DNA from: Utricularia gibba
Lineage: Eukaryota > Streptophyta > Magnoliopsida > Lamiales > Lentibulariaceae
Assembly (NCBI GenBank): GCA_002189035.1
Contig: NEEC01000286.1
Location: forward strand, 1 to 26,038
DNA length: 26,038 bases
Direction: 5' to 3'
Under the pieces are notes generated by a model, which saw only the letters and a program-made list of their open reading frames with translations, was not told where the DNA came from and did not search any database. How positions within the stretch are numbered: the first letter of the stretch is position 1; every line of letters starts with the position of its first letter. A program made the position numbers and the translations under genes. Shown here in pieces: positions 3,655-25,364 of the stretch.

Positions 3655-6137
3655 TTATGACAACTTGGAGTCTAATCCAGTATAATCAGCAGCTGTATAA
3701 GATTCAAACAGTTCTCGGATTAGCCCCTGTTTCCTTCTAGGATTGCAGCCCATATCTTTGCAGAGTTGATCATTGTACCAAATGTGAAAGCCCGCAATGC
3801 AAGCTCTCCTATACTCATTATTAACCGAGATTTTCTTCATGTACTTTCCCCACTCTTCAATGTCCTGTTCCATTTCCTTTATGCTGGGCAACGTAAACGC
3901 CCCATCTAGTAACGCCACGAGCCATTTGGAGCTCATTTCGAATGTGTAGATGTTCAAAAGAGACTCTGAATAGCCGATAACCGCCATTTGTGGATGCGTG
4001 GATGAATCATTTGCCTGTAACAAACATCATAGACTTGCAAAGTTGTAACACACATCTTACAATGAGACTCAAATACAAGCTCAAGCTAAGTAAAAGTACC
4101 TGTAGAGGGGCATCAGGGAAGTTGGAGACCGGCCGATGACGATGTCTCGGATGCTCGAGCGCGAAAACATGTTCCTGAGCTTCTCGTCTCCTTTGTATCC
4201 CGTTGCGAAGATGACTACATCTGCTACCAATGGTTGGTCCTTTTGTTCATCTAGAATCAAGCCCTCTTTGCAAAAAGAAATCTTTTTAGGCTTCTTGAAC
4301 ACAATACTTCCCGCTTCCACTTTGTCGTAGAAGTCCGATGGTATGATCATGACCTTACAAGTGGAAACATACTGCACAAATGGTTCCTTTGGAACCATGT
4401 CGTATTTCTTCAGTGGAAGCTTCCGCTTCAAATAGCTCTCCACGAACTTGGAAAGCGCCCACCTCTACAAAAAAGAGAACAGAAAATAATTTAGACCTTT
4501 GTCATTCTTCATGTTGATCAAATTTGTACCATACCATGGGACTCAACAGTGTAGCCAAGAGACCGTAAAGCAGCCCTTCACGAGGCTTATGAATCAGCAT
4601 CTCAGTAATGCGATTGAAAAGAAGAGCACCTATATCAACTCCCCGTGGAAACATGTCCGGCATCATCCACGGAATAGTTCGTTGCAACATCGTGCACGGA
4701 AGTTCGTTTCCTGGAAACCAAAAGCCGACCAAAGCTCAATTCACAATATCCCAACCTCAATCACTTTCAGAAAAATGCAATTCACCGAAAAAAACACACA
4801 GAGATTCACCAATCCTCACCGTTTGCAAGTGCACACTCGTAAGCCACATCGACGGCTGATTTATTACTGCCGATGACCACGACTCGCTTCCCTTTGATGA
4901 GCTCCAATGCGGCAGCATTGTCCATCGCGGAGTAGTCCATGGAATGCAGGACTTTCCCGGAGAATATCTCCGGTCCACGGCCATCGGGGAAGTCTGGTAT
5001 ATTCGGAAGGCCGCTAAACCTTCCGATACAGAGGACTAGGAAGTCCGCTTCATATTCCTACGGCAGAATCGCTGTAAATTGTTACTCAAGATAAACGATT
5101 TCAAATCGTAAAGAGCAATCGGCGAAAAAACATGAATTAAATTAATAATATTTTTAAAGTTAATAAAAAAATAGTCCACACTAATCATTTAACTCATTGA
5201 TGGACTCCAATTAGGGTTTCAAACGATATCAAAAGTAGGATTAAATTAGAATTTAGTTGGGTTTCAAGATTTCAATCAAAACTCTTACATAGGTTTGGTG
5301 CATAAAAACCTCATTATTTTAAATTCACCCTTTTCATACAATTAATAAGAAAGTAAAAAAGATTTTATTAAAGACACCAATGTAATTTTGATTTTAATAA
5401 TCATAAATTCAATTTTTAATAACTATTAATCAAACACAATACTTTAATAAAAAAAATGTAGTCAATAAATACATTTTTTATCTTAAATCCATAAATAAGT
5501 TTTTTAAAAAATCTAAATATTTTAAAATGATTTTATTAAAGACACCACAGCCCCACCATTCTAGTTCCTCTTCATTATTACTATTTTAGGTGATGACTAA
5601 ACTATGGTTAAATTTCTTAGTTAAAGAATATAATATAATGTTACGATATATTTAATTAATTGACTTGGGAATTTACGTGATTAAAATAAAAAAATACCTC
5701 TGTGGATTTAGATAAGGTGTCAAGAACCTGGAGCTTCCACTTGCCTTTAGATCCAAATGCCCTCCCGCTTCCTCCCCACAATTCCCATGCCACCATTTCC
5801 TCTTCGCTTTCCCCCACGTAATCCACGCTCCTCACTTTGCTGTTGAACTTGATGTAGCGCGCCAAATCGAAATGCTTGGCGTAGGAATTGACGTACTCGA
5901 GGACTTGATCCGCCGGAGGAACATCTCGTCGGCGTCGGGAGACGGCCAATCGAAATCGGAGAACCTGAAGTAGCGTTTCAGGTTCTGGAGCCGAGTCGTC
6001 TTCATCGTGTGATTCCATACCCCGCCGACTTGCCCCGCGGCTTCGAAGACCACAGGATTGAAGCCAGCGGCGGCGGCGTGCTTGCAGGCCAGGAGGCCGG
6101 CCATTCCGGCGCCGATGATCGCGACTCTCTTCTGCAT
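3655..6137 (-). CDS. Flavin-containing monooxygenase (FMO1-like), copy A, two frameshifts
   Basis: Class B flavin monooxygenases use FAD, NADPH and O2 to oxygenate N or S atoms of small molecules; the substrate here is unknown. Exons on the minus strand are 6137-5698, 5057-4820, 4710-4535, 4464-4100 and 4014-3655, all with GT..AG introns. Visible motifs are the FAD-binding GAGMAG at residues 9-14, the FMO signature [11 protein letters not shown], the NADPH-site [10 protein letters not shown] and FATGY near the C-terminus. The expected length is about 526 aa, normal for plant FMOs. Two single-base deletions break the frame. In exon 1, near 5918, copies B and C have GGG where A has GG. In exon 5, near 3992, one C is missing between the Ile and Pro codons of the IPQM motif. 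Exons 1-4 and the start of exon 5 are mirrored in copy B. It is either a pseudogene or a real gene with consensus errors. Confidence 0.85.
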
Positions 6138-6209
6138 TTTGACTGTTTGAGTTTGGCGCGTTAAGGGATTAGTTGCTTTGACTGGGATTTGGGGGGAAAA
6201 TGGAAGCCT

Positions 6210-6219
6210 CTATTTAAAC
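6210..6219 (-). promoter_or_regulatory. TATA-like element of FMO copy A
   Basis: On the minus strand this reads gtttaaatag, about 75 bases upstream of the ATG at 6137. The identical element and spacing occur in the mirrored arm for copy B. The assignment rests on position and composition only. Confidence 0.4.
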
Positions 6220-6728
6220 CTTTTTTTGGTTGAAAGACACCACGGAATGAGTTATGTTGGCCAAGACGTCCACGTAGCACGGGTAGTTGCCATCCAAACT
6301 TTGGAAATCCAAAACCAAGCATTCTATTTATTAATTGAATTATAATTTATCATAATCATTTTTAAAATAAAAAATGCGAAACTCAAAACCGTGCACGGAC
6401 ATCTATAAACCGTTTGCCGGTCAATAATTTCAAATTCTAGTGGAATGACTATTGATTTCATATGACAATGTTTATGTTTAAGGGTGGAGCTTGGGCTTGA
6501 GCAAACTCAGCCTTGACCTAATCTTAAAAAAAATTATATGTTAATTTAATTTATATTTTACTTAGAAATCTTGTTTAACTTCATGGATTGACCAACCTTA
6601 AAAATTTTCTCAAGCTCTACCAATACTTATGTTAAATCTTGAACTGAATATTTGCATCTTATTATAATATTGTTTGGATTTCATAGGAAAATGCTTATAT
6701 TGAATGCTCAAATTTGACATTCATATGA

Positions 6729-7088
6729 TTGCACATTCATGCAACATTGTGTACCACTCCATTCGGTGTTTGGTTTGAACTTGCAAAGGCACGACCTTCA
6801 TGCAATACTGCGTACCATTCTATCTGCTAGTAGTTTAAACTTACAAAGGATTGCAATTTCATGTAGCACTATGTAACCCTATCCAACGTTGGTTTAAAAT
6901 TGTAAAGAACAACTTCATGCAGCACTGCATAATGTTGTATCTAATATTGGTTTAAAGTTGTGGAGGACTGCAGCTTTACTCAATGGTGCATACCACTCTA
7001 TTTGATGTGGGATCAAACTTTGAAGCATTGTAGTTTTTACGTTTGCACCATTTAACACTCTATCTAGTGCTGGTTTAGACTTGCAAGA
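6729..7088. repeat. Six imperfect tandem repeats of about 60 bp (left arm)
   Basis: Six consecutive units of 62, 60, 60, 57, 60 and 61 bases share a core resembling TTCATGCA..ACTGCGTACCA, then CTCTATCT, then TGGTTTAAACTTGCAAAGGA. Units begin near 6729, 6791, 6851, 6911, 6968 and 7028. The units differ a good deal from one another, so the array is much older than the inverted duplication that copied it. It lies 0.6-0.95 kb upstream of FMO copy A. No function is evident. Confidence 0.75.
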
Positions 7089-7959
7089 TCATGTAACATG
7101 ATAATATGATGTTGGCTATAAATTGCAGATAGTTCTTTCATTATTAATTATAGACAGTTTTGATGGTTAACCAACCATGGAGTGCATGCTCGGCTATTTA
7201 ATCTCTCTAATGAGTGCTTATTGTGTCTCTTCATACCATTATTCCAAGGAGAACACACTAGTTCCACCTTCCTTTTCCTCCACATTGGACTTCTGATAAA
7301 CGAAAATCCATGTCATTGTTTAATTATGAAAATTTTGATTCAAATAAAATTTATAAAACCTAATTTTTTAGAGATACAAATCAAGCAATTGTATAGTGGA
7401 ATTAAGCTTGAACATAAGGAGTTTAATACCTATTGCATGAAATTTAATACATTCTAGTTTCAAAATCGATTTCAAGTTTAAGCAAAAACTAGCATGAATT
7501 CAATAATTGCGTGACAATAAAAATAAAGAGATAATATGTTTATAATTCTAAAAGTGGAATGTTCATTCAACTCATGTTTCAAACTAGCTCAAGATGATCT
7601 AAATCTACTCAAATCAATTATTTTTTTATTTTAATTTACTTAGGTATCCTATTTTCACCTTACCCTCAAGTCTACCATTTTATAAAATTAATAAGAATAG
7701 ATTTATTCAATCATATTAATCTCTATCCAAAAAAAATCAACTATCTAATTACATCATATATATCCATTAGTTTACCTCTAGGTTGGGTTTCCCAAGTTAG
7801 AATTATTTTTTCCCTACTAGATATATATACTAGATTGTTATGAAGATTTAAACTAGCACATTTTTCTTTTTGAATCTAGACTAAAATGACTACTTCTTCC
7901 ACATCTTCCTAAGGCATTGCTCTAATCTAGTCAATCAAACTAAAGATAAGCAAAATATC
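7089..7959. other. Noncoding remainder of the left arm
   Basis: This is AT-rich DNA between the 60-bp array and the inner end of the arm. Open frames of 70-90 codons appear here and in mirror image at about 9621-10193, but they show no recognisable domain and only reflect the arm duplication. I see no gene. Confidence 0.5.
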
Positions 7960-8065
7960 TTCATGAAACAAAAATAATGGTACATCCAATAGTCACAATC
8001 TTGATATAAAGAATAAAAAGAAACGAGAAGTAAAGAAAATTCTGAAAATGTCAAATAATCCATTT
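7960..8065. other. Unique segment inside the palindrome loop
   Basis: These 106 bases are the only part of the loop (7960-9408) not found elsewhere in the window. They separate the inner end of the left arm from the first copy of the direct repeat. They are probably continuous with the decayed retroelement DNA to the right. Confidence 0.6.
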
Positions 8066-8100
8066 TGCTTCTATAGTACTATTTCTGGTTGAAAGTCGAA

Positions 8101-8390
8101 TTAAGAAGTCAGAGATTGATGGATAAATTGTTGGTAATAACCCATGAAACCATAAAACTTAGAAAGAGCTTTTAGATTTGTAGGCAATAACATAGTGTAT
8201 TGGATAAATTGTTTTCCAAAGAAACATTTTGATAGCTTAGCAAAGAGTTTGCTAGTACATTTATTCATGTTTTTTGTTGTAAACAAGAATATCATAAAAA
8301 ATATCAATAAAAACTTGTGAATATACAATAGGAAATAATATTCATGAGAGAAAAAAATATGAAGGGAGCATTCGTCAGGCCAAAGAGATG
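8101..8390 (-). mobile_element. Ty3/gypsy reverse transcriptase relic, C-terminal half (copy 1)
   Basis: Read on the minus strand, frame-disrupted translation gives FGLTNAP..F..SLMN (about 8386-8340), KFLLIFF in place of the catalytic FVLVFFDDIL block (about 8320-8290), AKLSKCFFGK (about 8240-8205) and LPTNLKALSKFYGFMGYYQQFI (about 8180-8110). These are consecutive conserved blocks of gypsy RT, in order. The active-site aspartates are lost and frames shift repeatedly, so it is inactive. Confidence 0.8.
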
Positions 8391-8990
8391 TGAGGAAAGG
8401 ATCAAAAGAAGAAAAGATTGGACAAACACTACTCTTAAAATTTTTTGTTTGAAAAAAAAAAGCTGATGCGATCATAAATAATATAAATAAAGATAATGAA
8501 ACTGAAGAAAATAATAATACTAATCATCTCATAATTTCACTTGAGACAATTACTAGATCAATAACATGAAAAAATAAAAAAACTTATTATGAAATTGTAA
8601 ACCAATCAGAAAAACTATGAAACATATGACATTGAGTTCAACCTATTTAAATTAGATCAAGTTGAGTAAAATTGGGTTATAACATTTTAGTTCACTAACG
8701 TTGCTTTTATTTTGTGTAGGCCCATTTCCCTATTTTATTTAAAAATGGCTTCATTCTTGTTTGGAAACAATTTTGATTATAATAAATTTTGAAAATTATG
8801 CTTTTTCTTTAAGTTCTTATAGAACTTGAGACTTATGAAATTTTATTTATGATGTTTAGTGTAGTTTATTTTTTTGTTTCCTTTCATGTTTTGTGAGTAT
8901 AGTAGCATTTTCATAAATTGAGTTGCAATGATATTCATTTCTTGAGAATTAACTTCTTCTTTCATGAATTATTGTTTTATTTGAAACTTA

Positions 8991-9210
8991 GAGTATGTTT
9001 GGTAAAGCTTCTGCTTCAGTAGAAGCACTTCTAGAAGCAATTCTTAGATAAAACACGTGTTGTTCTGTTTTATATGAAGTTGAAATAATGAAGTGCTTCG
9101 ATTTTTTTTAGAAGCTAGGGTATCTCTGCTTCAAAAAAAATGAAACGTTTCTAGAACCACTTATTTGAAGTTGTTTGAAGTTTTTTCTGAAACAGTACCA
9201 AACAGACCCT
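8991..9210. mobile_element. MITE-like element (copy 1)
   Basis: This is about 220 bp bounded by imperfect terminal inverted repeats. The left end reads GAGTATGTTTGGTA and the right end, in reverse complement, AGGGTCTGTTTGGTA. Subterminal palindromic motifs built on AAGCTTCTGCTTC and AGAAGCACTTCTAGAAGC are typical of non-autonomous hAT-type plant elements. The flanks cttaga and cttaaga may be a degraded target duplication. There is no coding capacity. Confidence 0.5.
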
Positions 9211-10280
9211 TAAGATCTGATTTTCCAAAAAATTGTGGTTTGAACTATCACATCAAAAACCAATGATGACAAAAAAACATGCAGCAACACAATCTTTTAT
9301 TGAGCACACTAAGTGAGTGCATAATGAATGCAACAACAATGCTTGAATAGACAAAAAGTTGAACTAATTGTCCGAAAAAAAGTGCAACAGATCTCTGGTA
9401 AGAAATCCGATATTTTGCTTATCTTTAGTTTGATTGACTAGATTAGAGCAATGCCTTAGGAAGATGTGGAAGAAGTAGTCATTTTAGTCTAGATTCAAAA
9501 AGAAAAATGTGCTAGTTTAAATCTTCATAACAATCTAGTATATATATCTAGTAGGGAAAAAAATAATTCTAACTTGGGAAACCCAACCTAGAGGTAAACT
9601 AATGGATATATATGATGTAATTAGATAGTTGATTTTTTTGGATAGAGATTAATATGATTGAATAAATCTATTCTTATTAATTTTATAAAATGGTAGACTT
9701 GAGGGTAAGGTGAAAATAGGATACCTAAGTAAATTAAAATAAAAAAAATAATTGATTTGAGTAGATTTAGATCATCTTGAGCTAGTTTGAAACATGAGTT
9801 GAATGAACATTCCACTTTTAGAATTATAAACATATTATCTCTTTATTTTTATTGTCACGCAATTATTGAATTCATGCTAGTTTTTGCTTAAACTTGAAAT
9901 CGATTTTGAAACTAGAATGTATTAAATTTCATGCAATAGGTATTAAACTCCTTATGTTCAAGCTTAATTCCACTATACAATTGCTTGATTTGTATCTCTA
10001 AAAAATTAGGTTTTATAAATTTTATTTGAATCAAAATTTTCATAATTAAACAATGACATGGATTTTCGTTTATCAGAAGTCCAATGTGGAGGAAAAGGAA
10101 GGTGGAACTAGTGTGTTCTCCTTGGGAATAATGGTATGAAGAGACACAATAAGCACTCATTAGAGAGATTAAATAGCCGAGCATGCACTCCATGGTTGGT
10201 TAACCATCAAAACTGTCTATAATTAATAATGAAAGAACTATCTGCAATTTATAGCCAACATCATATTATCATGTTACATG

Positions 10281-10641
10281 ATCTTGCAAGTCTAAACCAG
10301 CACTAGATAGAGTGTTAAATGGTGCAACGTAAAAACTACAATGCTTCAAAGTTTGATCCCACATCAAATAGAGTGGTATGCACCATTGAGTAAAGCTGCA
10401 GTCCTCCACAACTTTAAACCAATATTAGATACAACATTATGCAGTGCTGCATGAAGTTGTTCTTTACAATTTTAAACCAACGTTGGATAGGGTTACATAG
10501 TGCTACATGAAATTGCAATCCTTTGTAAGTTTAAACTACTAGCAGATAGAATGGTACGCAGTATTGCATGAAGGTCGTGCCCTTTGCAAGTTCAAACCAA
10601 ACACCGAATGGAGTGGTACACAATGTTGCATGAATGTGCAA
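10281..10641. repeat. Six imperfect tandem repeats of about 60 bp (right arm)
   Basis: This is the mirror copy of the array at 6729-7088, with one extra base in a C run near 10582. It lies 0.6-0.95 kb upstream of FMO copy B, so both FMO promoters carry it at the same distance. Confidence 0.73.
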
Positions 10642-11150
10642 TCATATGAATGTCAAATTTGAGCATTCAATATAAGCATTTTCCTATGAAATCCAAACAA
10701 TATTATAATAAGATGCAAATATTCAGTTCAAGATTTAACATAAGTATTGGTAGAGCTTGAGAAAATTTTTAAGGTTGGTCAATCCATGAAGTTAAACAAG
10801 ATTTCTAAGTAAAATATAAATTAAATTAACATATAATTTTTTTTAAGATTAGGTCAAGGCTGAGTTTGCTCAAGCCCAAGCTCCACCCTTAAACATAAAC
10901 ATTGTCATATGAAATCAATAGTCATTCCACTAGAATTTGAAATTATTGACCGGCAAACGGTTTATAGATGTCCGTGCACGGTTTTGAGTTTCGCATTTTT
11001 TATTTTAAAAATGATTATGATAAATTATAATTCAATTAATAAATAGAATGCTTGGTTTTGGATTTCCAAAGTTTGGATGGCAACTACCCGTGCTACGTGG
11101 ACGTCTTGGCCAACATAACTCATTCCGTGGTGTCTTTCAACCAAAAAAAG

Positions 11151-11160
11151 GTTTAAATAG
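11151..11160 (+). promoter_or_regulatory. TATA-like element of FMO copy B
   Basis: The sequence gtttaaatag lies about 75 bases upstream of the ATG at 11233 and is identical to the element of copy A. The arm includes about 1.8 kb of DNA upstream of the start codon, so copy B should have inherited a complete proximal promoter. Confidence 0.4.
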
Positions 11161-11232
11161 AGGCTTCCATTTTCCCCCCAAATCCCAGTCAAAGCAACTA
11201 ATCCCTTAACGCGCCAAACTCAAACAGTCAAA

Positions 11233-13395
11233 ATGCAGAAGAGAGTCGCGATCATCGGCGCCGGAATGGCCGGCCTCCTGGCCTGCAAGCACGCCGCCGC
11301 CGCTGGCTTCAATCCTGTGGTCTTCGAAGCCGCGGGGCAAGTCGGCGGGGTATGGAATCACACGATGAAGACGACTCGGCTCCAGAACCTGAAACGCTAC
11401 TTCAGGTTCTCCGATTTCGATTGGCCGTCTCCCGACGCCGACGAGATGTTCCCTCCGGCGGATCAAGTCCTCGAGTACGTCAATTCCTACGCCAAGCATT
11501 TCGATTTGGCGCGCTACATCAAGTTCAACAGCAAAGTGAGGAGCGTGGATTACGTGGGGGAAAGCGAAGAGGAAATGGTGGCATGGGAATTGTGGGGAGG
11601 AAGCGGGAGGGCATTTGGATCTAAAGGCAAGTGGAAGCTCCAGGTTCTTGACACCTTATCTAAATCCACAGAGGTATTTTTTTATTTTAATCACGTAAAT
11701 TCCCAAGTCAATTAATTAAATATATCGTAACATTATATTATATTCTTTAACTAAGAAATTTAACCATAGTTTAGTCATCACCTAAAATAGTAATAATGAA
11801 GAGGAACTAGAATGGTGGGGCTGTGGTGTCTTTAATAAAATCATTTTAAAAATATTAGATTTTTTAAAAAAACTTATTTATGGATTTAAGATAAAAAATG
11901 TATTTATTGACTACATTTTTTTTATTAAAGTATTGTGTTTGATTAATAGTTATTAAAAATTGAATTTATGATTATTAAAATCAAAATTACATTGGTGTCT
12001 TTAATAAAATCTTTTTTACTTTCTTATTAATTGTATGAAAAGGGTGAATTTAAAATAATGAGGTTTTTATGCACCAAACCTATGTAAGAGTTTTGATTGA
12101 AATCTTGAAACCCAACTAAATTCTAATTTAATCCTACTTTTGATATCGTTTGAAACCCTAATTGGAGTCCATCAATGAGTTAAATGATTAGTGTGGACTA
12201 TTTTTTTATTAACTTTTAAAATATTATTAATTTAATTCATGTTTTTTCGCCGATTGCTCTTTACGATTTGAAATCGTTTATCTGAGTAACAATTTACAGC
12301 GATTCTGCCGTAGGAATATGAAGCGGACTTCCTAGTCCTCTGTATCGGAAGGTTTAGCGGCCTTCCGAATATACCAGACTTCCCCGATGGCCGTGGACCG
12401 GAGATATTCTCCGGGAAAGTCCTGCATTCCATGGACTACTCCGCGATGGACAATGCTGCCGCATTGGAGCTCATCAAAGGGAAGCGAGTCGTGGTCATCG
12501 GCAGTAATAAATCAGCCGTCGATGTGGCTTACGAGTGTGCACTTGCAAACGGTGAGGATTGGTGAATCTCTGTGTGTTTTTTCGGTGAATTGCATTTTTC
12601 TGAAAGTGATTGAGGTTGGGATATTGTGAATTGAGCTTTGGTCGGCTTTTGGTTTCCAGGAAACGAACTTCCGTGCACGATGTTGCAACGAACTATTCCG
12701 TGGATGATGCCGGACATGTTTCCACGGGGAGTTGATATAGGTGCTCTTCTTTTCAATCGCATTACTGAGATGCTGATTCATAAGCCTCGTGAAGGGCTGC
12801 TTTACGGTCTCTTGGCTACACTGTTGAGTCCCATGGTATGGTACAAATTTGATCAACATGAAGAATGACAAAGGTCTAAATTATTTTCTGTTCTCTTTTT
12901 TGTAGAGGTGGGCGCTTTCCAAGTTCGTGGAGAGCTATTTGAAGCGGAAGCTTCCACTGAAGAAATACGACATGGTTCCAAAGGAACCATTTGTGCAGTA
13001 TGTTTCCACTTGTAAGGTCATGATCATACCATCGGACTTCTACGACAAAGTGGAAGCGGGAAGTATTGTGTTCAAGAAGCCTAAAAAGATTTCTTTTTGC
13101 AAAGAGGGCTTGATTCTAGATGAACAAAAGGACCAACCATTGGTAGCAGATGTAGTCATCTTCGCAACGGGATACAAAGGAGACGAGAAGCTCAGGAACA
13201 TGTTTTCGCGCTCGAGCATCCGAGACATCGTCATCGGCCGGTCTCCAACTTCCCTGATGCCCCTCTACAGGTACTTTTACTTAGCTTGAGCTTGTATTTG
13301 AGTCTCATTGTAAGATGTGTGTTACAACTTTGCAAGTCTATGATGTTTGTTACAGGCAAATGATTCATCCACGCATCCCACAAATGCTTCTATAG
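11233..13395 (+). CDS. Flavin-containing monooxygenase (FMO1-like), copy B, truncated with chimeric end
   Basis: This is the inverted copy of FMO A. Exons are 11233-11673, 12314-12551, 12660-12835, 12906-13270 and 13356-13395. They total 1260 bases, giving an unbroken 419-residue product with all introns GT..AG. It keeps the FAD motif GAGMAG, the FMO signature [11 protein letters not shown], the NADPH-site IGSNKSA and FATGY. Exon 5 stops after HPRIPQM, where the FMO arm joins gypsy-derived DNA. That DNA supplies two leucine codons and a TAG (13393-13395). About 110 C-terminal residues present in A and C are missing, including the conserved IGYSES..N.YTFEM..KWL block. The lost region contributes to the FMO fold, so activity is doubtful. 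The native 3' UTR and polyadenylation region are also gone. Confidence 0.85.
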
Positions 13396-13399
13396 TACT

Positions 13400-13710
13400 A
13401 TTTCTGGTTGAAAGTCGAATTAAGAAGTCAGAGATTGATGGATAAATTGTTGGTAATAACCCATGAAACCATAAAACTTAGAAAGAGCTTTTAGATTTGT
13501 AGGCAATAACATAGTGACGTATTGGATAAATTGTTTTCCAAAGAAACATTTTGATAGCTTAGCAAAGAGTTTGCTAGTACATTTATTCATGGTTTTGTTG
13601 TAAACAAGAATATCATAAAAAATATCAATAAAAACTTGTGAATATACAATAGGAAATAATATTCATGAGAGAAAAAAATATGAAGGGAGCATTCGTCAGG
13701 CCAAAGAGAT
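13400..13710 (-). mobile_element. Ty3/gypsy reverse transcriptase relic, C-terminal half (copy 2)
   Basis: It shows the same conserved blocks as at 8101-8390: the GYYQQFIH region, AKLSKCFFGK, the decayed catalytic block and FGLTNAP. It was carried along in the direct repeat, so it is not an independent insertion. Confidence 0.78.
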
Positions 13711-14310
13711 GTGAGGAAAGGATCAAAAGAGAAAAAGATTGGACAAACACTACTCTTAAAATTTTTTGTTTGAAAAAAAAAAGCTGATGCGATCATAAAT
13801 AATATAAATAAAGATAATGAAACTGAAGAAAATAATAATACTAATCATCTCATAATTTCACTTGAGACAATTACTAGATCAATAACATGAAAAAATAAAA
13901 AACTTATTATGAAATTGTAAACCAATCAGAAAAACTATGAAACATATGACATTGAGTTCAACCTATTTAAATTAGATCAAGTTGAGTAAAATTGGGTTAT
14001 AACATTTTAGTTCACTAACGTTGCTTTTATTTTGTGTAGGCCCATTTCCCTATTTATTTAAAAATGGCTTCATTCTTGTTTGGAAACAATTTTGATTATA
14101 ATAAATTTTGAAAATTATGCTTTTTCTTTAAGTTCTTATAGAACTTGAGACTTATGAAATTTTATTTATGATGTTTAGTGTAGTTTATTTTTTTTGTTTC
14201 CTTTCATGTTTTGTGAGTATAGTAGCATTTTCATAAATTGAGTTGCAATGATATTCATTTCTTGAGAATTAACTTCTTCTTTCATGAATTATTGTTTTAT
14301 TTGAAACTTA

Positions 14311-14530
14311 GAGTATGTTTGGTAAAGCTTCTGCTTCAGTAGAAGCACTTCTAGAAGCAATTCTTAGATAAAACACGTGTTGTTCTGTTTTATATGAAGT
14401 TGAAATAATGAAGTGCTTCGATTTTTTTAGAAGCTAGGGTATCTCTGCTTCAAAAAAAATGAAACGTTTCTAGAACCACTTATTTGAAGTTGTTTGAAGT
14501 TGTTTTCTGAAACAGTACCAAACAGACCCT
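14311..14530. mobile_element. MITE-like element (copy 2)
   Basis: This is the copy of the element at 8991-9210, duplicated with direct repeat D. It has the same imperfect TTTGGTA-type terminal inverted repeats and the same palindromic interior. Confidence 0.5.
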
Positions 14531-14763
14531 TAAGATCTGATTTTCCAAAAAATTGTGGTTTGAACTATCACATCAAAAACCAATGATGACAAAAAAACAT
14601 GCAGCAACACAATCTTTTATTGAGCACACTAAGTGAGTGCATAATGAATGCAACAACAATGCTTGAATAGACAAAAAGTTGAACTAATTGTCCGAAAAAA
14701 AGTGCAACAGATCTCTGGTAAGAAATCCACTAATTATTCAACTACAATAACAGCATTCCTTGA

Positions 14764-14997
14764 TCAACATAAGTGAATGTTTCTTGGGTCCGTTGGCTTA
14801 TTTGATTGAATGAAGATCACATGTGTTGACAATGGCATGAAAAAGTACTCATAATGTTCAAGAAAGATGGAAAAACTTGTTTTAAGCACATCATCAAGTG
14901 GATGCGAATTTGAAAAACTGGAACATAAATCAAGTTTAAAAATGTAAATTACCCCATGTAATTCATCAAGGAGATTATCAGCCAAAGGGATTGGCAA
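14764..14997 (-). mobile_element. Ty3/gypsy reverse transcriptase relic, N-terminal half
   Basis: An open stretch of about 77 codons on the minus strand reads PIPLADNLLDELHG, FKLDLCS, then DDVLKTSF and HYEYFFMPL. This is the classic gypsy RT order: PIPLIDDLLDELHG, SKLDLRSGYHQIR, KTAFRTHEGHYEFLVMPFG. It stops where the FGLTNAP block should start. That block is found further along the same strand inside repeat D. The two halves may belong to one element split by about 1 kb of insertion, or to two related elements. Confidence 0.82.
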
Positions 14998-15039
14998 ACA
15001 ATCATTTGGTGAGAAGTTATATGAGTGGTACAGTGCTTG

Positions 15040-15420
15040 ACTTCAAATATATAACTCGGGTCAATTTATGGTGCGAGTAAAGTCCATGCCTCCAATTCAT
15101 TGCATTTGACTCTTCAAGTGGTGACTGCTAACGATGGTTACTTTGAAGTCATTTCACAAGTCACAAAATAAATTACTGAAAAGCTTGATGTAGAAGAAGG
15201 ATGAAAGCTAGTGATTTGGGAGTGGAGGTGCTCATAACAATCAATATAATCTACAAATGTTTCTGTTTGTAAGAGTTTCATGAACTCAATGAGAACTTGT
15301 ATGGTATGCAAATCATCAAACTCTTAGGAAATCTGAAGAAAATTCCACCCAATTACATGATGAGTGAAGAGATTTGTAGCCCATCTAGCTAAGCATTTGC
15401 TGCCTCATAAAATGCAATAC
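15040..15420 (-). mobile_element. Ty3/gypsy gag relic
   Basis: Minus-strand translation gives W.EFSSDFL, then after a frameshift EFDDLHTIQVLIEFMKL, QTETFVDYIDCYEHLHSQI and SSFSVIYFVTCEM. This follows the retrotransposon gag pattern of a tryptophan-led helix, L.Q..SV..Y...FE.L...I, and the following (F/L)SGLK-type position. It lies upstream, in element sense, of the RT relic at 14764-14997. The protease and zinc-knuckle region expected between them is missing. Confidence 0.55.
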
Positions 15421-15700
15421 TAGAATCAGCCAACCAAGACCTCTCTTGAAGTGAGAGTAACAGATTGATTAGAGTTAGCAAATCGCTAATGGTTGAAATG
15501 AGCAAATGCAGCAAGGGACTAGGGTTAAAGCATTCTTAGGCTTTCTCTTGAGCAAATCGTTATTGGGTAATAGCATCCTTTTCATCCAAAAGTGCAGTCT
15601 TTAGGATTGGGGACTTCACAACATCACATGCAACGTTTTTATAAAGCGCAATTCACAGAGAGTTGCTACTAAGTGCAACAAAGTCAATGTTTTTCATACA
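15421..15700. other. Unassigned DNA between gag relic and FMO C
   Basis: I see no gene here. It may be the 5' part of the decayed gypsy element, since some minus-strand stretches remain open but match nothing I recognise. The last about 60 bases resemble the 3' flank of FMO copy A (compare 3560-3654 with 15630-15707) and are probably the copy C 3' UTR. Confidence 0.4.
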
Positions 15701-15707
15701 TTAGAAC

Positions 15708-18589
15708 TTATAAGGACCTGGAGGAGCCCAATCCAGCATAATCAGCAGCTGTGTAAGATTCAAACAACTCTCTGATTAACCCTTGTTTCCTTCTAGGATT
15801 GCAGCCCATATCTTTGCAGAGTTTGTCATTGTACCAAGTATGAAAACCCGCAATGCAAGCTCTCCTATACTCATTATTAATGGTATATTTCTTCATGCAC
15901 TTTCCCCATTCTTCAATGTCATGTTCCATTTCCTTTATGCTAGGCAATGCAAATGCCCCATCCAGAAATGACACGAGCCATTTGGAGTTCATTTCGAATG
16001 TGTAGATGTTGGAAAGAGACTCTGAATAGCCGATGACCGCCATTTGCGGGATGCACGGATGAATCATCTGTCTGCAACACACATCATAGACTTGCTAGTG
16101 TTTCAGTGAGAAGTCCCATATACTACAAGCTCATGTTTATGTACAAGTACCTGTAGAGGGGCATCAGGGAAGTTGGAGACCGGCCGATGACGATGTCTCG
16201 GATACTCGAGCGCGAAAACATGTTCCTGAGCTTCTCGTCTCCTTTGTATCCTGTTGCGAAGATGACAACATCTGCTACCAATGGATGCTCGTTTTGTTCA
16301 TCGAATATCAAGCCCTCTTTACAAAAAGACATCCTCTGAGGCTTCTTGAACACAATGCTTCCCTCTTCCACCTTGTCGTAGAAGTCTGCTGGTACGATCA
16401 TGACCTTACAAGTGGAACCATGGAGGACAAATGGTTCCTTTGGAACCATGTCGTACTTCTTCAATGGAAGCTTACACTTTAAATAGCTCTCCACAAACTT
16501 GGAAAACGCCCACCTCTACAAAAGGAGAGGAGAACATAAGTTGAACCTCTGTCATCCCTTATGCGGATCAAACTTTTAGCGTACCATGGGACTCAGCAGT
16601 GTAGCCATCACACTGTAAAGCAGCCCTTCACGAGGCTTATGAATCAAGATCTCAGTCATGCGATTGAAAAGAAAAGGACCTATAGGAACTCCCCAGGGAT
16701 ACATGTCCGGCAGCATCCACGGAATAGTTCTCTGCACCATCGTGCACGGAAATTCATTTCCTGGAAGCCCAAAACCCTACCAACGCTCATTCAGAGTATC
16801 CCAACCTCAATCACTTTCAGACATATGCAATTCACCGACAAACACACTCACAGAGTTACCAATCCTCACCGTTTGCAAGTGCACACTCGTAAGCCACGTC
16901 GACGGCTGATTTATTACAGCCGATGACGACGACTCGCTTCCATTTGATGAGCTCCAATGCGGCAGCATTGTCCATTGCGGAGTAGTCCATGGAATGCAGG
17001 ACTTGCCCGGAGAATATTTCAGGTCCGCAGCCATCGGCGAACTCTGGTGTATTCGGAAGGCCGCTGAATCGTCCGATGCAGAGGACCAGGAAGTCCGCTT
17101 CGAACTCCTGCCGCCAAATCCCAAATTTTTGTACAAAATCTTAAAATTAATAATTTTTTGTAATATTTTATAAGTTTTTTGGTAATTTTTTATGAATAAT
17201 CATTCAAATATATTTCGTTTCCATATTTACACGCTCGTTACATTACATCACCATATAACTATGTTTTGAAATCACTAAGTTAATCGATTGGGGGTACTTT
17301 GGTATATTCATATTACTTTAACCTAATTAAAATAACTCATTTCAATAGTAAATTAATTTCAAAAACCAAATCAATTAAATAACCTAACAATAGCATTATA
17401 ATTTACGATTCAGATTAAATGTTCAATTTTCGTTGTTCTTTCTTATTTAATTTAATTTCTCGTATCATGAGTCTATTTAAATATTTTTTTATCTTATTGA
17501 AGGTAAGTTATTTGGATAATATTTTTGTATTGAAATCGATTATTTGGTTAGAAATATTGTTGATTAATATTTATCTACAAATTATATAAATGTTACAAAA
17601 ATTAAAATAATACATTTTTTAACTTGTTGAAGTCAAGTTTGACTAACATGAAGTAACCGTTCGATTTTAAATCATAACTACACGTAGTGTTCGATTGATG
17701 AGATTGAATGAGTTTAAAAGTATAATTATGAATTATAAGATGTTAATTTCATAGATTAAAATATATCTAGTATTCCATGGATTTTTTTTTAATTTCATGT
17801 ACATAGGGTTTATTTAAAACCATATACCCTTTTTTTTTACTTAATACTACTTAATCCCAATTGTAATCTCAATAACTATACGTTCTTTAAAAAATTAATC
17901 CGCCTATATCAACTATATTTAAATTCAAATAAATTAAACTATTTCTTTTTTATCTCATAACTGTTGTACCGTGTGTTCATTCAATATTATTATTACTATT
18001 TTAGGTGATGACTAAACTATGGTTAAATTTCTTAGTTAAAGAATATAATATAGATTTAATTAATTGACTTTTAAATTTACGTATACTGATGGATTAAATA
18101 AAAAGGTTATCGGAAACGGTAAAAAGGAGGAGCGGTTAATAAAACGTACCTGGGTGGATTCAGATATGGTATCAAGAACCTGGAGCTTCCACTTGCCTTT
18201 AGATCCAAATGCCTTCCCGCATCCTCCCACAATTCCCATGCCTCCATTTCCTCTTCGCTTTCCCCCACGTAATCCACGCTCCTCACTTTGCTGTTGAACT
18301 TGATGTACCGCGCCAAATCGAAATGCTTGGCGTAGGAATTGAGATACTCGAGGACTTGATCCGCCGGAGGGAACATATCGTCGGTGTTGGGAGACGGCCA
18401 ATCGAAATCGGAGAACCTGAAGTAGCGTTTACGGTTCTGGAGCCGAGTTGTTTCCATCGTGTGATTCCATACCCCGCCGACTTGCCCCGCGGCTTCGAAT
18501 ACCACCGGATTGAAGCCAGCGGCGGCGGCGTGCTTGCAGGCCAGGAGGCCGGCCATTCCGGCGCCGACGATCGCGACTCTCTTCTCCAT
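15708..18589 (-). CDS. Flavin-containing monooxygenase (FMO1-like), copy C, one frameshift
   Basis: This is a full-length paralogue of copy A in the same orientation. Exons are 18589-18150, 17107-16870, 16760-16585, 16515-16151 and 16071-15708, with the same phases as A and B. The expected product is about 527 aa. Motifs seen are GAGMAG near residue 10, [21 protein letters not shown] (A and B have GSNKSA), FATGY, and the complete C-terminal [18 protein letters not shown] block. One G is missing in exon 1 near 18226-18228, where B has four Gs and C three. That breaks the frame about 30 codons before the exon end, while the exons beyond stay well conserved. Intron 1 (18149-17108) is longer than in A. 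C differs from A by many substitutions, so the A/C duplication is older than the A/B one. Confidence 0.85.
17108..18149 (-). other. FMO C intron 1
   Basis: This is a 1042 bp AT-rich intron with no gene inside. About 90 bases near its 5' end (about 17985-18085) closely match the corresponding part of intron 1 in FMO A (about 5572-5685), showing that the copies share descent beyond the exons. The rest has diverged beyond visual alignment. Confidence 0.7.
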
Positions 18590-18993
18590 TGTGACTGCTT
18601 ATGGCGTGAAGTTGCTTGATTGGGATTTGGGGAAAATGGAAACCTCCGTATAATCTATTTTTAGGAAACACGGGAATGAATCATGTCGGCCAAGAAGTCC
18701 ACACAGCACTGTGGTGACAGCCAACCATATTTTTGAAGGTCGAAAATGATTAATTGGATTGAAATTATTTAAATAATATAAAAACCTAAAAAATAATAAA
18801 CAACTAATTCCATTTACGGAACAGAGCAAGGCTTCCGGCCCCAACGACTTAAATGTATGGGCTACTCATTGTGGCCTGCTTCTACGAGGCCCAGATTGAA
18901 GGAACGAATACATGTTGCCTGAGTTCGTCGCATTAGGGAAACAAGTCTGTGATTCCTTTGCGCTGATGGGGTGAAGCCAATTGAGACGATCTA
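18590..18993. promoter_or_regulatory. Shared intergenic region between divergent FMO C and MIP3-like genes
   Basis: These 404 bp separate two start codons pointing away from each other, so both promoters must lie here unless they use distant elements. On the FMO side (18590-18700) traces of the copy A upstream sequence remain, such as the run from the ATG through tgggatttgggg, but the TATA-like element of A and B is not conserved. Confidence 0.5.
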
Positions 18994-19658
18994 ATGGCGA
19001 CGGTTGATTTAATCAAATGCTGTTTAGAATCTATTCGACAGGTGAGTTGAGATTTTTTTTTTTTTTTTTGTTTTGGTTTGCTTTTTCCTGTGTGTGGTTA
19101 TTTGCTTTCTGTTTTCCCCTTTCTCTCTGGTAATGTTGTTCGTTTTTTTTTTCTGTTTCCTCGGGTTTGCAGATATCGGATCACATTGATGACGCAGTAA
19201 TTTATTTAGATGCGGGAAGTACGGAAGCTTTCCAAATAATTGGGGCTTACCCTTTGTTTCTGGAGCTTGGTGCTCGAGCTGTTGCTAGCTTAAAGAGCAT
19301 GTTGGCTCTTGATAAAGTGAAACATTTATGGTGCCATTTGATTCATTGATTTTGTTTTTATTTTGTAACTTTTATGTGAGCTTTAGTGACGCTTTGGCTG
19401 AAAATTTTTCATCTCTTGCATTGTTTCCTGTGATTTCTTATGGTTGGTGCCATTTGATTCATTGATTATTTTGTAACTTTTATGTGAGCTTTAGTGACGC
19501 TTTGGCTGAAAATTGTTAATCTCTTGCATTGTTTCCTGTGATTTCTTATGGCTGTTGCCCTCTAGGTGGTTGGTTGGGGAAGCAATCCTGGTCACGTGAC
19601 GAAAATCGTTGTGTTCACATCACGCTTTCCGAGTGATGCACATAGATATATTTTATGA
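18994..19658 (+). pseudogene. MIP3: 5' fragment of a Sec1-family (MIP3/SCFD2-like) gene
   Basis: Three exons in phase, 18994-19041, 19173-19316 and 19566-19658, encode about 94 residues. They start MATVDLIKCCLESIRQ, continue ISDH..DAVIYLDAGSTEAFQ and PLFLELGARAV, and end FTSRFPSDAHRYIL. This matches my memory of the N-terminus of plant Sec1-like proteins of the Arabidopsis MIP3 (At2g42700) type, which act with MAG2 in Golgi-to-ER tethering. The full protein is several hundred residues longer. Here the frame meets TGA right after HRYIL, and recognisable retrotransposon integrase begins within tens of bases. The gene is therefore a truncated fragment, probably broken by that element. Intron 2 contains a tandem duplication. 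The 5' region may still be transcribed. Confidence 0.72.
19329..19551 (+). repeat. Tandem duplication inside MIP3-like intron 2
   Basis: Two adjacent copies of about 110 bases (19329-19444 and 19445-19551) begin tggtgccatttgattcattg and end gatttcttatgg. They differ by a 9-10-base deletion in the second copy and a few substitutions. This accounts for most of the length of intron 2. Confidence 0.9.
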
Positions 19659-19659
19659 T

Positions 19660-20166
19660 GTCTGAATATGCTTCAAATTGTTATAAATGGTTTCAGAGGT
19701 GTGCAATTGGTGTGAGAGTGGTAGGAATTACAATTTATACCAAACCCCATAGCTTTTCATTAATTTATCCATAGTTTTATTGAAAAAATGATTTCTACAT
19801 TCATTGATCAAGGGTTTTGGTGTTCCAAACCTCACAAAGATGTATTCTTAAAAAATTATATGACTGAATAAACGTATTGAGAATTGATGGGTATCGCCTC
19901 CATCTATTTTTAAACACATTACACTACTATCAAAATGTATTCATAATCATCATAGTTTGGAAAGGGGTCTATGAAGTTAGTGACCCACACATCGAACACT
20001 TCTTGAACAATAATTGACTTCATTGGCATTTCATTGCGGTTTGATGTTTCTTGTTTGATTGCAGTTTTCACAACTCTTACAATAAGACTTGACATACTTC
20101 AAAACTGTTGGTCAATAATAACCACAATCCAATACTTTCTTTGCTATATGGTTAGGACTATGATAC
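19660..20166 (-). mobile_element. Ty3/gypsy integrase relic
   Basis: The minus strand shows, in order: the integrase zinc-finger region (YHSPNHIAKKVLDCGYY, then KSYCKSCENCNQTRNI), RNEMPMKSII..EVFDVW..NFIDPFP, YILIVV, then FVRFGTPKPLIN...NHFFNK, and PYHSHTN in place of PYHPQTNGQ. These are the H2C2 finger and catalytic core of a gypsy integrase, broken by several stops and shifts. The element is truncated at its 3' side against the MIP3-like exon and at its 5' side near 20166. Confidence 0.85.
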
Positions 20167-20870
20167 TTTTAAGTGTTATTTTCTAATTATTATTGTATAT
20201 TAATTTAGTATTAAGTTGTTCAAATTAAGAATTAGATTAATAAGTGTTCTATTTTTTAAAAAAAAAATCTTATTTTTCTATTTTGTATATATTTTCGTTA
20301 TCTTTTTCATGCACTTTGACTGAAATGTGGTAGGAGACACGTGGAGTGTTGCAGGATGCTTGCAGCAGACAAGACATTGACATTTCGTGCCTTGCACACG
20401 ACTTGGAATAATTGTGAATGGAATACTGACACTAATCAAGTCCCCCGACTTATAGCATGTTAGAGTCTACAACAATGATTCGATGCTTATTTGCATGCAT
20501 GAGAAAGCTGGTGGTGCACGCAAGACAGAAAAAATGATGGAAAGGGGACCAAAAAGAGTTAATGCACGTGAGAAATGATATAAAATTAACTTGAAACACT
20601 ATTTTCGTACTTTTGAACATTGGACTTTTGACACTTACTTTTTGCTCATAGAATTTTTGATTCTTCCTCTCCTCCAAGAGAGTAAGAACATTTTAGCTTT
20701 CCATTTCATTTTCTGTTTTGATGGCTCTTTATAGCTAAACTCTTTTAGTTTATGTGAGTAGATGAAGTTCCCTTCAAAATTTTGAGCACAATTCTTGGTT
20801 CTTTATTTAAATTCTTCTGGATTTTGCATACTTTCACGCGTCTTGTTGCAGTCTTTCTGTAACGTCTCCT
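20167..20870 (+). mobile_element. Possible LTR or leader of an unidentified retroelement
   Basis: Homology to the integrase relic stops near 20166, just before a TGTT (20173). The next about 700 bases include a leader-like stretch with agctaaactcttttagttt and gtgagtagatgaa (about 20730-20765), which reminds me of the R-U5 part of plant gypsy LTRs. I found no convincing 3' CA end, primer-binding site or second copy. The call is tentative. Confidence 0.25.
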
Positions 20871-20880
20871 AGTCAAAGTT

Positions 20881-21063
20881 CATGAGTAGTAGGCCACTGC
20901 TCATGGATTTTGATGAAGAGTAAAGTGAAGAGCACCATCTCCAACCCTACCGGTTTGAGAGAAATAGTGAATTGTTTGTGATTGAGGTACCGCAACAATG
21001 GACAGATAGTGACCTCGAAATTGCCATTGATCATTGGCAACATCCGGGCACATGCGTAAAATT
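20881..21063 (+). other. Short coding-like stretch, unidentified
   Basis: From an ATG at 20881 the plus strand runs 60 codons with a single internal stop (20923-20925) before the next stop at about 21061-21063. Composition is protein-like and hydrophilic, with RFERNSELFVIEVPQQW and DLEIAIDHWQHPGTC. I do not recognise a family. It could be a decayed retroelement gag or a gene fragment, and a chance frame is not excluded. Confidence 0.25.
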
Positions 21064-22041
21064 TGATTTTTGAAGGCAATTGACAGCAATCCTCTTGTTT
21101 TCTCAATCTTCCAAGGGGGAATCACATGAAGCTATTCTCATGCCTCCTTGTCAATTAGAGTGTAAGGGAGAGTAGACTATTCATTACTTCTATAACTCCT
21201 ATAACCAGCTATTCGGAAAGAATCAGTGAAAGCCAAGGTAAAGATGGACAGAAGAAAGAAACGGAATCCATTTCCTAGGAACGACAACCCTTAGTCAAGG
21301 TCTATTACTTGCATTGTAACTTTCATTTCCTTACTTCAAAAACCTCCTTTTTACAAACTCGTGATAATTTGTAAAAGTCTGCTATAAAACACTTTTCAAA
21401 AAACTTAAATCCCTGAGATTCACACTCATACTAGGGTCTTTTGTGTTTTACGTTTTTCATATATAAAATTTGTTAAGGAAATGACACGCAACAGATACCC
21501 TCCACAAGGAGACGTATGACAAAAAGCCAGTACTTGGTGAATGTCATCTTTAGCCAAGCATCATCGTGCAACACCATCATTACCATTTTTCCACAAATAA
21601 GGGTTATTCATGAATAATAGGCGAATGTCCTTAGTGTTGGGCACGAATTGTGCCCAACTAGTTGTGGGCAAGGCCCAACAAATTTGTTAATCCAACATGT
21701 ACAACCTATAGGCCAAATTTTCGTTTGGATTCATAAGTGGGTTGGTCCCATGGGTTTTAATTAAACCCAACCCAACCTGTGGCCTGAAGACCAATTAATG
21801 GGTTCACGATGGATGACCCAATATTTTAAAAAATATTTTTAAATTTATATTTTTAGTTTTAACTCAAATTATATTAAATATTTAAATCCTAATAATTATA
21901 AAGTAATATTTTTATAAAATATATAAAAATAGGACTATGACTCTCATTTTATTAATTTATCCTCACTTTTGACTGAATAATACCATAATACAAATGTTTG
22001 AAAATAAAAATAAAAACATAAAAAACTCCTAATACCATGTA
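21064..22041. other. Unassigned intergenic DNA
   Basis: No gene is seen. A perfect hairpin (9-bp stem gttgggcac, 5-base loop) lies at 21636-21658, and related gggcaaggccc and CCCAACCC-type motifs follow to about 21830. These may be subterminal sequence of the hAT element to the right. The part after 21830 is very AT-rich. Confidence 0.4.
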
Positions 22042-22905
22042 CTATTCGTCTTCTTCATATTCCTCTTCAGAACTTGATGCATAATATTGTAATTTATTCT
22101 TCCTCCTTGCCACATCATTTCAATTTTTTCAAACATATACATGCCTTCAATGTGTCAAGAACAAATTTTGATCTTTTCTTAATAAGCATTCTCCACTAGC
22201 ACTAAATGCACGGTTGAAATTGGAGTACATCTTTGGCCATCTTAACCAAGATTGGAAAATTTATAACATTGCTTTTCCACCATATTAGTAAATCAAACGA
22301 ATCATCATCATTACCTTCAACAATAGGCGCATTGTGTTGTAAAAAATATATTCTCCATGTGAACTAGAGAATTGGGAGGATGAACTACATTTGCTACGAA
22401 CTAAAGTAATAGGATGAATAACAAAAGAGCATGAAGAAAAAGATGAAGGAATAAAAACATTTACCATAGACATATTTGATGCACCATGCTCAATTTCATG
22501 TAATGAAAACATAGCTTGAATATTCAAAATTGCTTACCTATTCATTTTAAGAACATCAATAAAAACATAAAGTAGAGTTTTCTATCTTTTTTCCTTTAAT
22601 CTAGAATCCAAACTAGTTGCAACAAGATATAATTGAAGAATTTTATCATAATATTTTCAATTTTTTTTTTGCATATCACCTATTATACTATCAAATGGAG
22701 GCTCCCGAGAGCACTTATAAAAAACATACGAAATGCGAACAACTCCTTGAAGAATTAAATGTATAGTAAGAAAATATGAAGTGCTTAGCAAATTAGTACA
22801 AGAATATATTCTACCAGATCGACCTTTTACCATTACCTGCAACACCAGAAGAATTAGAATCCGTAGTTTTAGAATCAACTTGTAAGTCTTCATCTGAGTC
22901 CAAGT
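22042..22905 (-). mobile_element. Decayed hAT-family transposase
   Basis: Read leftwards, a region resembling the hAT RNase H-like fold gives STSYFLTIHL and SIIGDMQKKN (about 22780-22670), then YYDKILQLYLVATSLDSRLK (about 22655-22597). The C-terminal dimerisation region follows: FDLLIWWKSNVINFPIL and KMAKDVL (22298-22230), RAFSASGECLLRKDQ (about 22215-22170) where the consensus is SAFS.GGR, and an acidic tail EEEYEEDE before a stop at 22042. Frames shift several times and the N-terminal zinc finger is not visible. It is a dead copy of an autonomous hAT element. Terminal inverted repeats were not located. Confidence 0.78.
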
Positions 22906-23785
22906 CATCCAAATCTATGTCATTATTATCAATGGATTGTTTGAGGAATGAAAAGATCATATTCCATCCATATCGAAATCTGAAAAATAAAAAAAACTCA
23001 TATTTACATATTCTTAATACTTAATTGAAGACTCATATTAATAAATTGAAGATTTTAAAAAAATCAAGCTAGATATAATCAAACAAAATCCATGATACAG
23101 ATTCAGTATATATCAACAAAACGTGAAATTATGTAAATACTTAAAAAAAGAAAAAATATAAATAAAATTAAAAAAATTCCAACTTCAGATGGATCAAAAA
23201 TATGCAAACAATGGTGAAAATGAATCAAAATTATGTGGCTATTGTTAGATTGCGATCAAAATATCCTTTTGAATCTAAACAATATGGCTAGGGTTGAATG
23301 GTGATTCCAAAATTCAAAATATTCTGTTTTGATATGTGTTAAATTGGGTTTTGAATTTTGGATCAAAAAGAATTATCCATAGAATTATTTTGGATTGATG
23401 TGTCAACTCGTGGCTCAACGGGTTTGTTCTTATATGTGTTAAAATTGGTTTTGAATTTTGGACTGAAACAAATTATCCACCAAAGAATTATTTTGGACTG
23501 ATGTGTCAATTTGTGGTCCAATGGGTCTGACCCGTTAGGGTCATGTGTTGATTTGGCTCAATCCATCAACTTTCTAAGACAGGTTGACCCATGGACTAGA
23601 CTCATTCATATGGGTACAAAAAGATTAGTAAACCTAGTAATGAGGCTCGCAAAACCAATTTTAACATGACTTAGAGGAATGATAATGATGAAATGATTGT
23701 CACCATGCTTGGTTATTTAAATCTAATCGAGACCAGTAGTGACCGGATTACGGAATCAAGAGCAAACTGTCATATTTATTCAAGG
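22906..23785. other. Unassigned DNA between hAT transposase and copia element
   Basis: No gene is seen apart from the duplication at 23332-23527. It likely contains the rest of the hAT element and its border. A region rich in GACCCGTTAGGGTC- and TTGACCCATGG-like motifs (23528-23620) resembles hAT subterminal sequence. Confidence 0.4.
23332..23527 (+). repeat. Tandem imperfect duplication of about 100 bp
   Basis: Copy 1 (23332-23423) and copy 2 (23432-23527) both run from atatgtgtt through ttttgaattttgga, gaattattttgga and tgatgtgtcaa to a caa-gggt motif. They probably belong to the subterminal region of the neighbouring hAT element. Confidence 0.7.
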
Positions 23786-24747
23786 AATGAGTATTTCTCC
23801 TTCTATAGTCCATTTGGGGTGACAATCATATGATCAAGTTTGCTGACAAGTCTACTACACCAGTGCTTGAAATGGGAGAAGTCTCTAAAATTTACCTCAA
23901 TAAAGACTGCCCTTTTGAAGAATGTGTTGCATGCTCCTACCATAAATACCAATGTCATCTCAGCCATCCAGATGGATAAATGTGACCTAAATATCTACTT
24001 AGGCAATGGGGCTATTGTGATGATGAAAAACAATGTCTTTGTTAGGAAAAGAAACATCGGTAGTCAAGAGTTGTATGTGATGAATGCTTCTGTTATTTTT
24101 TAGAATCAAATTGATTCTGCTTACATGATGTTCTTTTGATATCTAACATGTTAGACTAGGTCATACTAACTATGTCTACATGAAAAGTATGCAACAATTA
24201 GATTTAATTTCGAAATTACTTGACTTATCTGCTAAGTGTGAAACTTGTATAAAGGCAAAAATAATTAAAAAATCATGTTTTTTTGAGTAAAGAATCTGAA
24301 TTGCTTGCATTGATTTATTTGGATGAGATACCTCAAAGGAACAACTGACTATGACATTCAATATCATAAAAAACCCATTGTATTGGAGGGATACAATGAT
24401 GATAGTTGGGTATATGGGACAGAAGAGCCAAAGACCATAAGTGGAGTGATTTTTACATTGGGTAGAGGAGCTGTATCTTGGAAATCCACTAAAAAAACCT
24501 TGATATCTAAATCATTAATGGAAGTTGAGTTCATTACATTAGATCTAATAAGAATTGAGGTCGATTGGTTGAGAAACTATGTGATGAGAATCCCTCTTAA
24601 GCAACACGGATCCTTCTGAGTGTTGCTGCATTGTGATTGCCAAGCATTGATTGTCACTGTTAAGAATCGATCCTACAATGGAAGAAATATACACATGCAA
24701 CTAAGGCATGGAATATTGAGATTGTTGTTAAGAACCGGTGTGATATC

Positions 24748-25248
24748 CATTGTGATGGGGTACAAATCGGATATGGTTAATCGGTCCCTGAAAAGCTGCC
24801 AAAAGGAACTGTGATGGGATAGGTTTGGCTGATAGACCGATATGTGTCAGAGACACAGTCTGAAAAGTGGTCGAATTACGGCAGAGCAGGCAACGATTTT
24901 CTGAAAAGCAGGATCGCAGTACAGGTGCAGAAAGCAACTGACAATTAAAGAATTCAGGATTCGATCAGATCGATCTCTCCTATAAATAGGATAAATTCTG
25001 AAGAGAAAAGGGTTGGACCCTTAGCCCACTAACGTGTATTCCCTCTCTTCCATCGTCTAGTGAAGGTTATTCTCTGGTGAGCTCTGACAGCTCTGTAGTT
25101 TTTTTGTCTTCCGGCGGTTTCCACGTAAAAATCTTGTCTTTTCGAACTCTTTATAGCATACGACCCTAAACCGGTATGCTGCATCCAGCTACACCCATAA
25201 CTTGAAAATCGCCCAATCCTGATATCGATTTTCACCCTCAACACATTG
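24748..25248 (+). mobile_element. Solo LTR with 5-bp target duplication, nested in copia RNase H
   Basis: The LTR spans 24753-25243 (491 bp). It begins TGATGGGG and ends CCTCAACA, so its ends are imperfect inverted repeats of the canonical TG..CA type. It is flanked on both sides by CATTG (24748-24752 and 25244-25248). Removing the LTR and one CATTG would rejoin the RNase H codons in the same frame, which strongly supports an insertion. Inside is a TATA box, TATAAATAGG, at 24981-24990, in the position expected for a plus-oriented U3/R boundary. No internal retroelement genes remain, so this is a solo LTR. Confidence 0.85.
24981..24990 (+). promoter_or_regulatory. TATA box of the solo LTR
   Basis: The sequence tataaatagg lies about 228 bases into the 491 bp LTR, a usual place for the U3 core promoter. 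It could drive rightward transcription across the copia tail. Confidence 0.55.
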
Positions 25249-25364
25249 AATACATGAGAATGTTAGTGAATTTGACCAATCCACTAGCCAAACCTCTCAA
25301 TAGAGAGAGAATCTGTGAGCTTTTGAGGGGAATGAGACCAATGCCGTTAAGCAAACGACAATGA

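Follow-up and report, generated by a model that had tools for sequence, protein, structure and literature searches.

How did a stretch of Utricularia gibba DNA come to carry one FMO-like arm twice in opposite orientations and the segment beside it twice in the same orientation, and is this arrangement present in the organism or only in the assembly? The window analyzed here is the entire contig C249 (26,038 bp, end to end), and the assembly searched comprised 100 Mb in 516 contigs, C249 and the much larger C244 (3.4 Mb) among them. The reading that we favor, at a probability of roughly 55%, is that C249 represents another allele of the C244 locus, one bearing a recent copy-and-paste rearrangement produced by template switching.

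Segments and junctions of the rearrangement

A sequence-only reading of the window had proposed the segment order A, spacer, D, inverted A and D again. When the window was compared with itself by BLAST, this order proved correct to the base, and all four duplicated segments were recovered at the coordinates that had been proposed. The features are as follows, A' and D' being the second copies.

3658..4026, minus strand: last FMO coding stretch (PF00743, E 4.1e-5; FMO-like profile 362-447 of 532)
3985..7959, minus strand: A, the source arm; it contains an FMO-like gene except for roughly 330 bp at the end of the coding sequence, together with ~1.8 kb upstream
7960..8065, no strand: single-copy spacer between A and D, 106 bases (107 in C244)
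8066..9408, plus strand: D, first copy
9408..9409, no strand: junction 1, from the end of D to the reverse complement of A from 7959; 0 bp shared
9409..13386, plus strand: A', the copy of A in inverted orientation; its FMO-like gene, truncated at the 3' end, lies on the plus strand with ATG at 11233
13385..13386, no strand: junction 2, from A' (ending at 3985) to the start of D (8066); TG common to both
13385..14728, plus strand: D', second copy of D in direct orientation, continuing into the original right flank

In the self-BLAST, A (3985-7959) matched 9409-13386 in inverted orientation at 99.65%, with 1 mismatch and 13 gap openings over 3983 columns, and D (8066-9408) matched 13385-14728 in direct orientation at 99.11%, with 3 mismatches and 7 gap openings over 1348 columns; both matches are too long for chance. 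The copies differed mostly by indels of 1-3 bases, which look like long-read consensus error. No second copy of the 106-base spacer (7960-8065) was found by self-BLAST within the window. Two duplicated segments and two inverted junctions thus lie on a single derivative in C249 as assembled, and the junctions seen in the contig sequence agreed with their earlier description, blunt at 9408/9409 and sharing the two bases TG at 13385-13386.

A transposon or MITE origin of the arm was considered and rejected, because the two arm ends are not inverted repeats of each other: CATTTGTGGG did not match the reverse complement of the other end, GATATTTTGC. The arm edge at 3985 falls within FMO coding sequence, and the flanking duplication is 1,343 bp long, not a short target duplication. 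The earlier statement that the arm was not inserted as a mobile unit was upheld on both counts, the missing mobile-element ends and the long flank duplication. The breakpoints 7959 and 8066 sit in a stretch with dispersed relatives: 7908-8096, which contains the spacer, matched two further genomic locations at 74-77%, and parts of D matched many others at ~67-82%. Folding of 7900-8110 was no better than that of its shuffles (z 0.06), giving no unusual folding at these two breakpoints, and a scan of 7450-8250, away from the 3985 end, returned weak inverted repeats only.

Unrearranged order in the same assembly

C244 has the order predicted for the locus before the event, A-spacer-D-flank, with each segment present once and the inverted arm absent. 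Its A spans 1619207-1623186 and its D spans 1623294-1624637; 107 bases of spacer separate the two, and D continues into the right flank. In C244, bases 1-9408 of C249 matched 1615214-1624637, A' aligned on the opposite strand with 1623186-1619207, and 13385-26038 matched 1623294-1635958. With the inverted arm and one D removed, C249 gave a single 20,719-base alignment to C244 (99.7%, 13 mismatches, 38 gap openings), and this one-piece alignment suggests that the two contigs are alternative alleles at one locus, C249 being apparently allelic and not a distant copy. A and D occur twice each in C249 and once each at the locus in C244, a copy gain that argues against a cut-and-paste event.

The C244 order alone leaves the direction of change unfixed. 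Since the D copies are direct repeats whose recombination would restore the C244 order exactly, the C244 state may be ancestral or revertant.

Three contigs were found at the locus, namely C244, C249 and C247, the last of which covers only A, the spacer and 752 bases of D. The same segment order would also result from two steps, a tandem duplication of A-spacer-D followed by inversion of the second A and loss of the second spacer. That route needs an extra event and an inversion that breaks exactly at the tandem junction, and none of the three contigs, of which C247 is partial, shows an intermediate; we consider this route very improbable.

Probable allelic differences and alternate small contigs

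Both C249 arms differed from C244 at A-alignment columns 1812 (T to A), 2659 (G to C), 2781 and 2891 (each T to C), and both departed from it at column 2811, with a gap in A and G in A'. When C247 was aligned with A, it shared the 2781 change and the 2811 gap with C249, had a gap at 1811-1812 and kept the C244 base at 2659 and 2891, so that C247 and C249 cannot simply be assigned to one haplotype. In its left flank, C249 had a T-to-A substitution and a 1-base deletion in common with C247, and five further substitution rows against C244 lay from 15970 of the C244 slice rightward. As both arms share alleles absent from C244, either the copied arm had its own chromosome as template or C249 as a whole is a single chimeric molecule, and the data fit both.

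The latter possibility, in which a molecule or read made chimeric by two strand switches could not be placed in C244 and was left as a small contig, was weighed against several lines of evidence. Amplification chimeras typically show near-identical copies and inverted switches within kilobases, and C249 has both. Its 26 kb would also be the size of a long read, and exclusion from a main contig selects odd structures, real or not. Moreover, indel density shifts near the insert: indels per kb against C244 numbered 2.8 (left flank), 2.0 (A), 5.2 (D), 1.5 (A') and 0 (D'), then 0.55 in 14729-22000 and 3.5 from 22001 to the contig end. A change-point test over C249 bases 1-22000, leaving out the indel-rich last 4 kb, placed the change at ~12590 (range 9200-13550), a shift reached in 0 of 500 permutations. 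Given this shift, C249 may have been put together around the insert from pieces with uneven support.

Against a chimera stand the non-C244 alleles in the left flank and in both arms. Random ligation would not be expected to return twice to one 5.4-kb locus, and an overlap-based misjoin would not readily be expected where the joined sequences have only 0 and 2 bp in common. Furthermore, the other small contigs C246, C247 and C251 look like real structural alternates of C244, one of them with a clean retrotransposon empty site. C247 (27,470 bp) follows C244 without 5,352 bp at C244:1607159-1612510. The sequence missing from it is an LTR retrotransposon, complete by its ends, of 5,347 bp with identical 390-bp LTRs, TG...CA ends and a 5-bp duplication, GGGGG, and C247 carries the empty site with one GGGGG. 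C251 matched C244 at 99.87% as far as the insertion point, lacked a ~5.35-kb insert (C244:3232211-3237560) and resumed beyond it. C246 matched C244 at 98.5% and 99.7% on two sides of a repeat-rich, different middle, as in a diverged alternate. Branching-path contigs of FALCON assemblies are described as structural alternates of larger contigs (PMC6115840, in the text available), and C246, C247 and C251 resemble them in structure. Taken with the allele data, this evidence makes a chimera unlikely in our judgment, and we infer that both junctions are present in the organism.

The C251-absent insert begins with nearly the same letters as the LTR element, the comparison covering only its start. 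Two ~5.35-kb C244 inserts with near-identical starts are missing from near-identical small contigs, which suggests that a family of LTR retrotransposons has been active recently.

Among the seven contigs C245-C251, overlap with C244 was seen for five, namely C246, C247, C249, C251 and, through its first 100 bases only, C245; C248 overlaps C413 and not C244 over the 3,000 bases tested, and C250 is a tandem array. This contig order is no more than suggestive of small contigs being listed behind their parent. The first 100 bases of C243 matched a tandem array in several contigs.

Inverted copies were surveyed in C240, C246, C247, C248, C250, C251, C252 and C253, four of which were informative, too few for a rate. 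No internal copies of at least 300 bases at >90% were found in C247, C248 or C251, each read whole, and those in C246, also read whole, were direct only. The other four are tandem arrays (C240 so among the matches listed) and uninformative on inverted copies. C252 and C253 have a unit of ~2.33 kb, mostly >99% alike, and C240 and C250 a unit of ~307 bp, ~92-96% alike among the matches listed.

Proposed template switching and the age of the event

Two template switches are the shortest account of the structure and fit it best. A replicating or repairing end would reach the end of D (9408), switch ~1.45 kb back onto the opposite strand at 7959 and copy A backwards as far as 3985; a second switch would then take it to the original strand at 8066, where D would be recopied before the end moved onward. 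The same path might equally have been followed in reverse. The pathway would be replicative and FoSTeS/MMBIR-like.

Junction homology was compared with that of random inverted junctions in the region (50,000 draws), of which 54% shared 0 bases and 18% shared at least 2. Two random junctions shared at least 2 bases in total with P = 0.41, the observed values being 0 and 2 bp at two junctions. Homology of this extent is no more than chance, two junctions being too few to reveal an excess, and is not evidence for template switching. Thus, of the earlier proposal that two template switches made the structure without a transposase, the part that stood is that they account for the segments and that mobile-element ends are absent, whereas the junctions offer no proof.

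An identical product with identical junctions would be yielded by a staggered break, in which opposite-strand nicks 1.34 kb apart, one at each end of D, leave overhangs that are filled in to give two D copies, while one end copies the nearby A in inverted orientation as templated filler before end joining. Junction homology of 0-2 bp would suit end joining, and perfect tandem duplications beyond 1 kb, up to 4.9 kb, have been ascribed in rice to adjacent-nick repair (PMC7971508), so that a kilobase-size direct duplication in a plant has a precedent there. However, the break at this locus would require an unusually wide stagger and a 4-kb filler, whereas in rice the tandem share makes up 5% of events by 200 bp, down from 70%. 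Inverted filler is not described, nor is the word 'inverted' used, in the available text of that study (PMC7971508). We regard a staggered break as quite unlikely, and template switching remains the preferred reading.

In the multiple alignment, 4 substitutions separate A from A', of which 3 fall within a single shifted A/T run, and 3 separate D from D'. The total is at most 7 in ~5.3 kb, and consensus error probably accounts for many of these. At a plant rate of 7e-9 substitutions per site per year, the event would be under about 0.1 million years old. Because almost nothing has changed since, its mechanism would be readable without much decay, if it is real.

Comparison with known rearrangement classes

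The layout is already known as a class, two duplications linked by inverted junctions, and C249 is a new example of it. It resembles the local 2-jump, of which 531 instances are given for a human cancer set in the account available, in having two local junctions, both inverted, and two duplicated segments, and in being solvable as one derivative chromosome; it differs in being a plant allele with the pre-event allele in the same assembly. With DUP-NML-INV/DUP and DUP-NML-DUP as described in the available text of PMC9851044, it shares a duplicated A, a single-copy spacer and a duplicated D, with one duplicated part inverted. There, DUP-NML-INV/DUP names human pericentric inversions with junction duplications, unlike C249, in which the single-copy part is 106 bp. 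Among 1,019 human long-read genomes, inverted duplications were the commonest form, at 277 of 733 inversions outside mobile-element insertions, mostly with 1-15 bp of junction homology and interpreted by the authors as replicative; their median is 284 bp in the part of that report available (PMC12350158), whereas the C249 arm is 4 kb and its flank is duplicated too.

As a structural variant, the C249 event would be recent but ordinary in class. If real, it offers a copy-and-paste event with two junctions, resolved to the base, in a plant whose assembly also contains the unrearranged allele. Small alternate contigs of this kind should not be taken as reference structure.

FMO-like genes and other features of the locus

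In A', PF00743 (FMO-like) matched 11233-11715 (E 1.1e-16) and 12314-12562 (E 1.3e-5), and no Pfam family was found for 12635-12865 or 12906-13286, between FMO matches. Because the arm begins at 3985, A' retains only 42 bases (3985-4026) of the last FMO coding stretch, and one frame, read without splice-site calls, runs into Met-Leu-Leu-stop just past junction 2. The two event-derived FMO copies are arranged head-to-head, with 1.45 kb between the arm edges, and the expected effect is one 3'-truncated copy facing an intact one. The 4-kb inverted arms and the 1.34-kb direct D repeats would predispose the allele to inversion and exact reversion, both of which are predicted to be measurable if the allele is real.

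A second FMO-like gene was found at 15711-18598 on the minus strand, with a match at 18110-18598 (E 1.5e-16) and matches below the curated cut-off at 15711-16094 and 16859-17140; a third related copy lies ~12 kb further on in C244 (1637280-1639999). Both resemble parts of A at ~87% identity, and the locus is a tandem FMO array. One speculation, to which we give little credence, is that the allele is very recent and possibly clonal or somatic, that versions of this region are nearly free of SNPs and differ by fresh retrotransposon insertions and this rearrangement, and that the 4-kb head-to-head FMO inverted repeat is a source of dsRNA or methylation over the array.

Two stretches in or near D, 13423-13662 and 14767-15042, we took by eye to be retrotransposon-protein-like, and neither matched a Pfam family at E up to 5. 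In the window, there were zero Rfam matches at the gathering score, and no tRNA was reported by ARAGORN. A weak Pol_BBD retroelement match, below the curated cut-off, was seen at 23834-24100 (E 3.7e-4). Short tandem repeats occur at 19329-19559 (~115-120 bp) and 23325-23526 (~100 bp). To the left of the rearrangement, DUF688, a plant family, matched at 1874-2733 on the plus strand.
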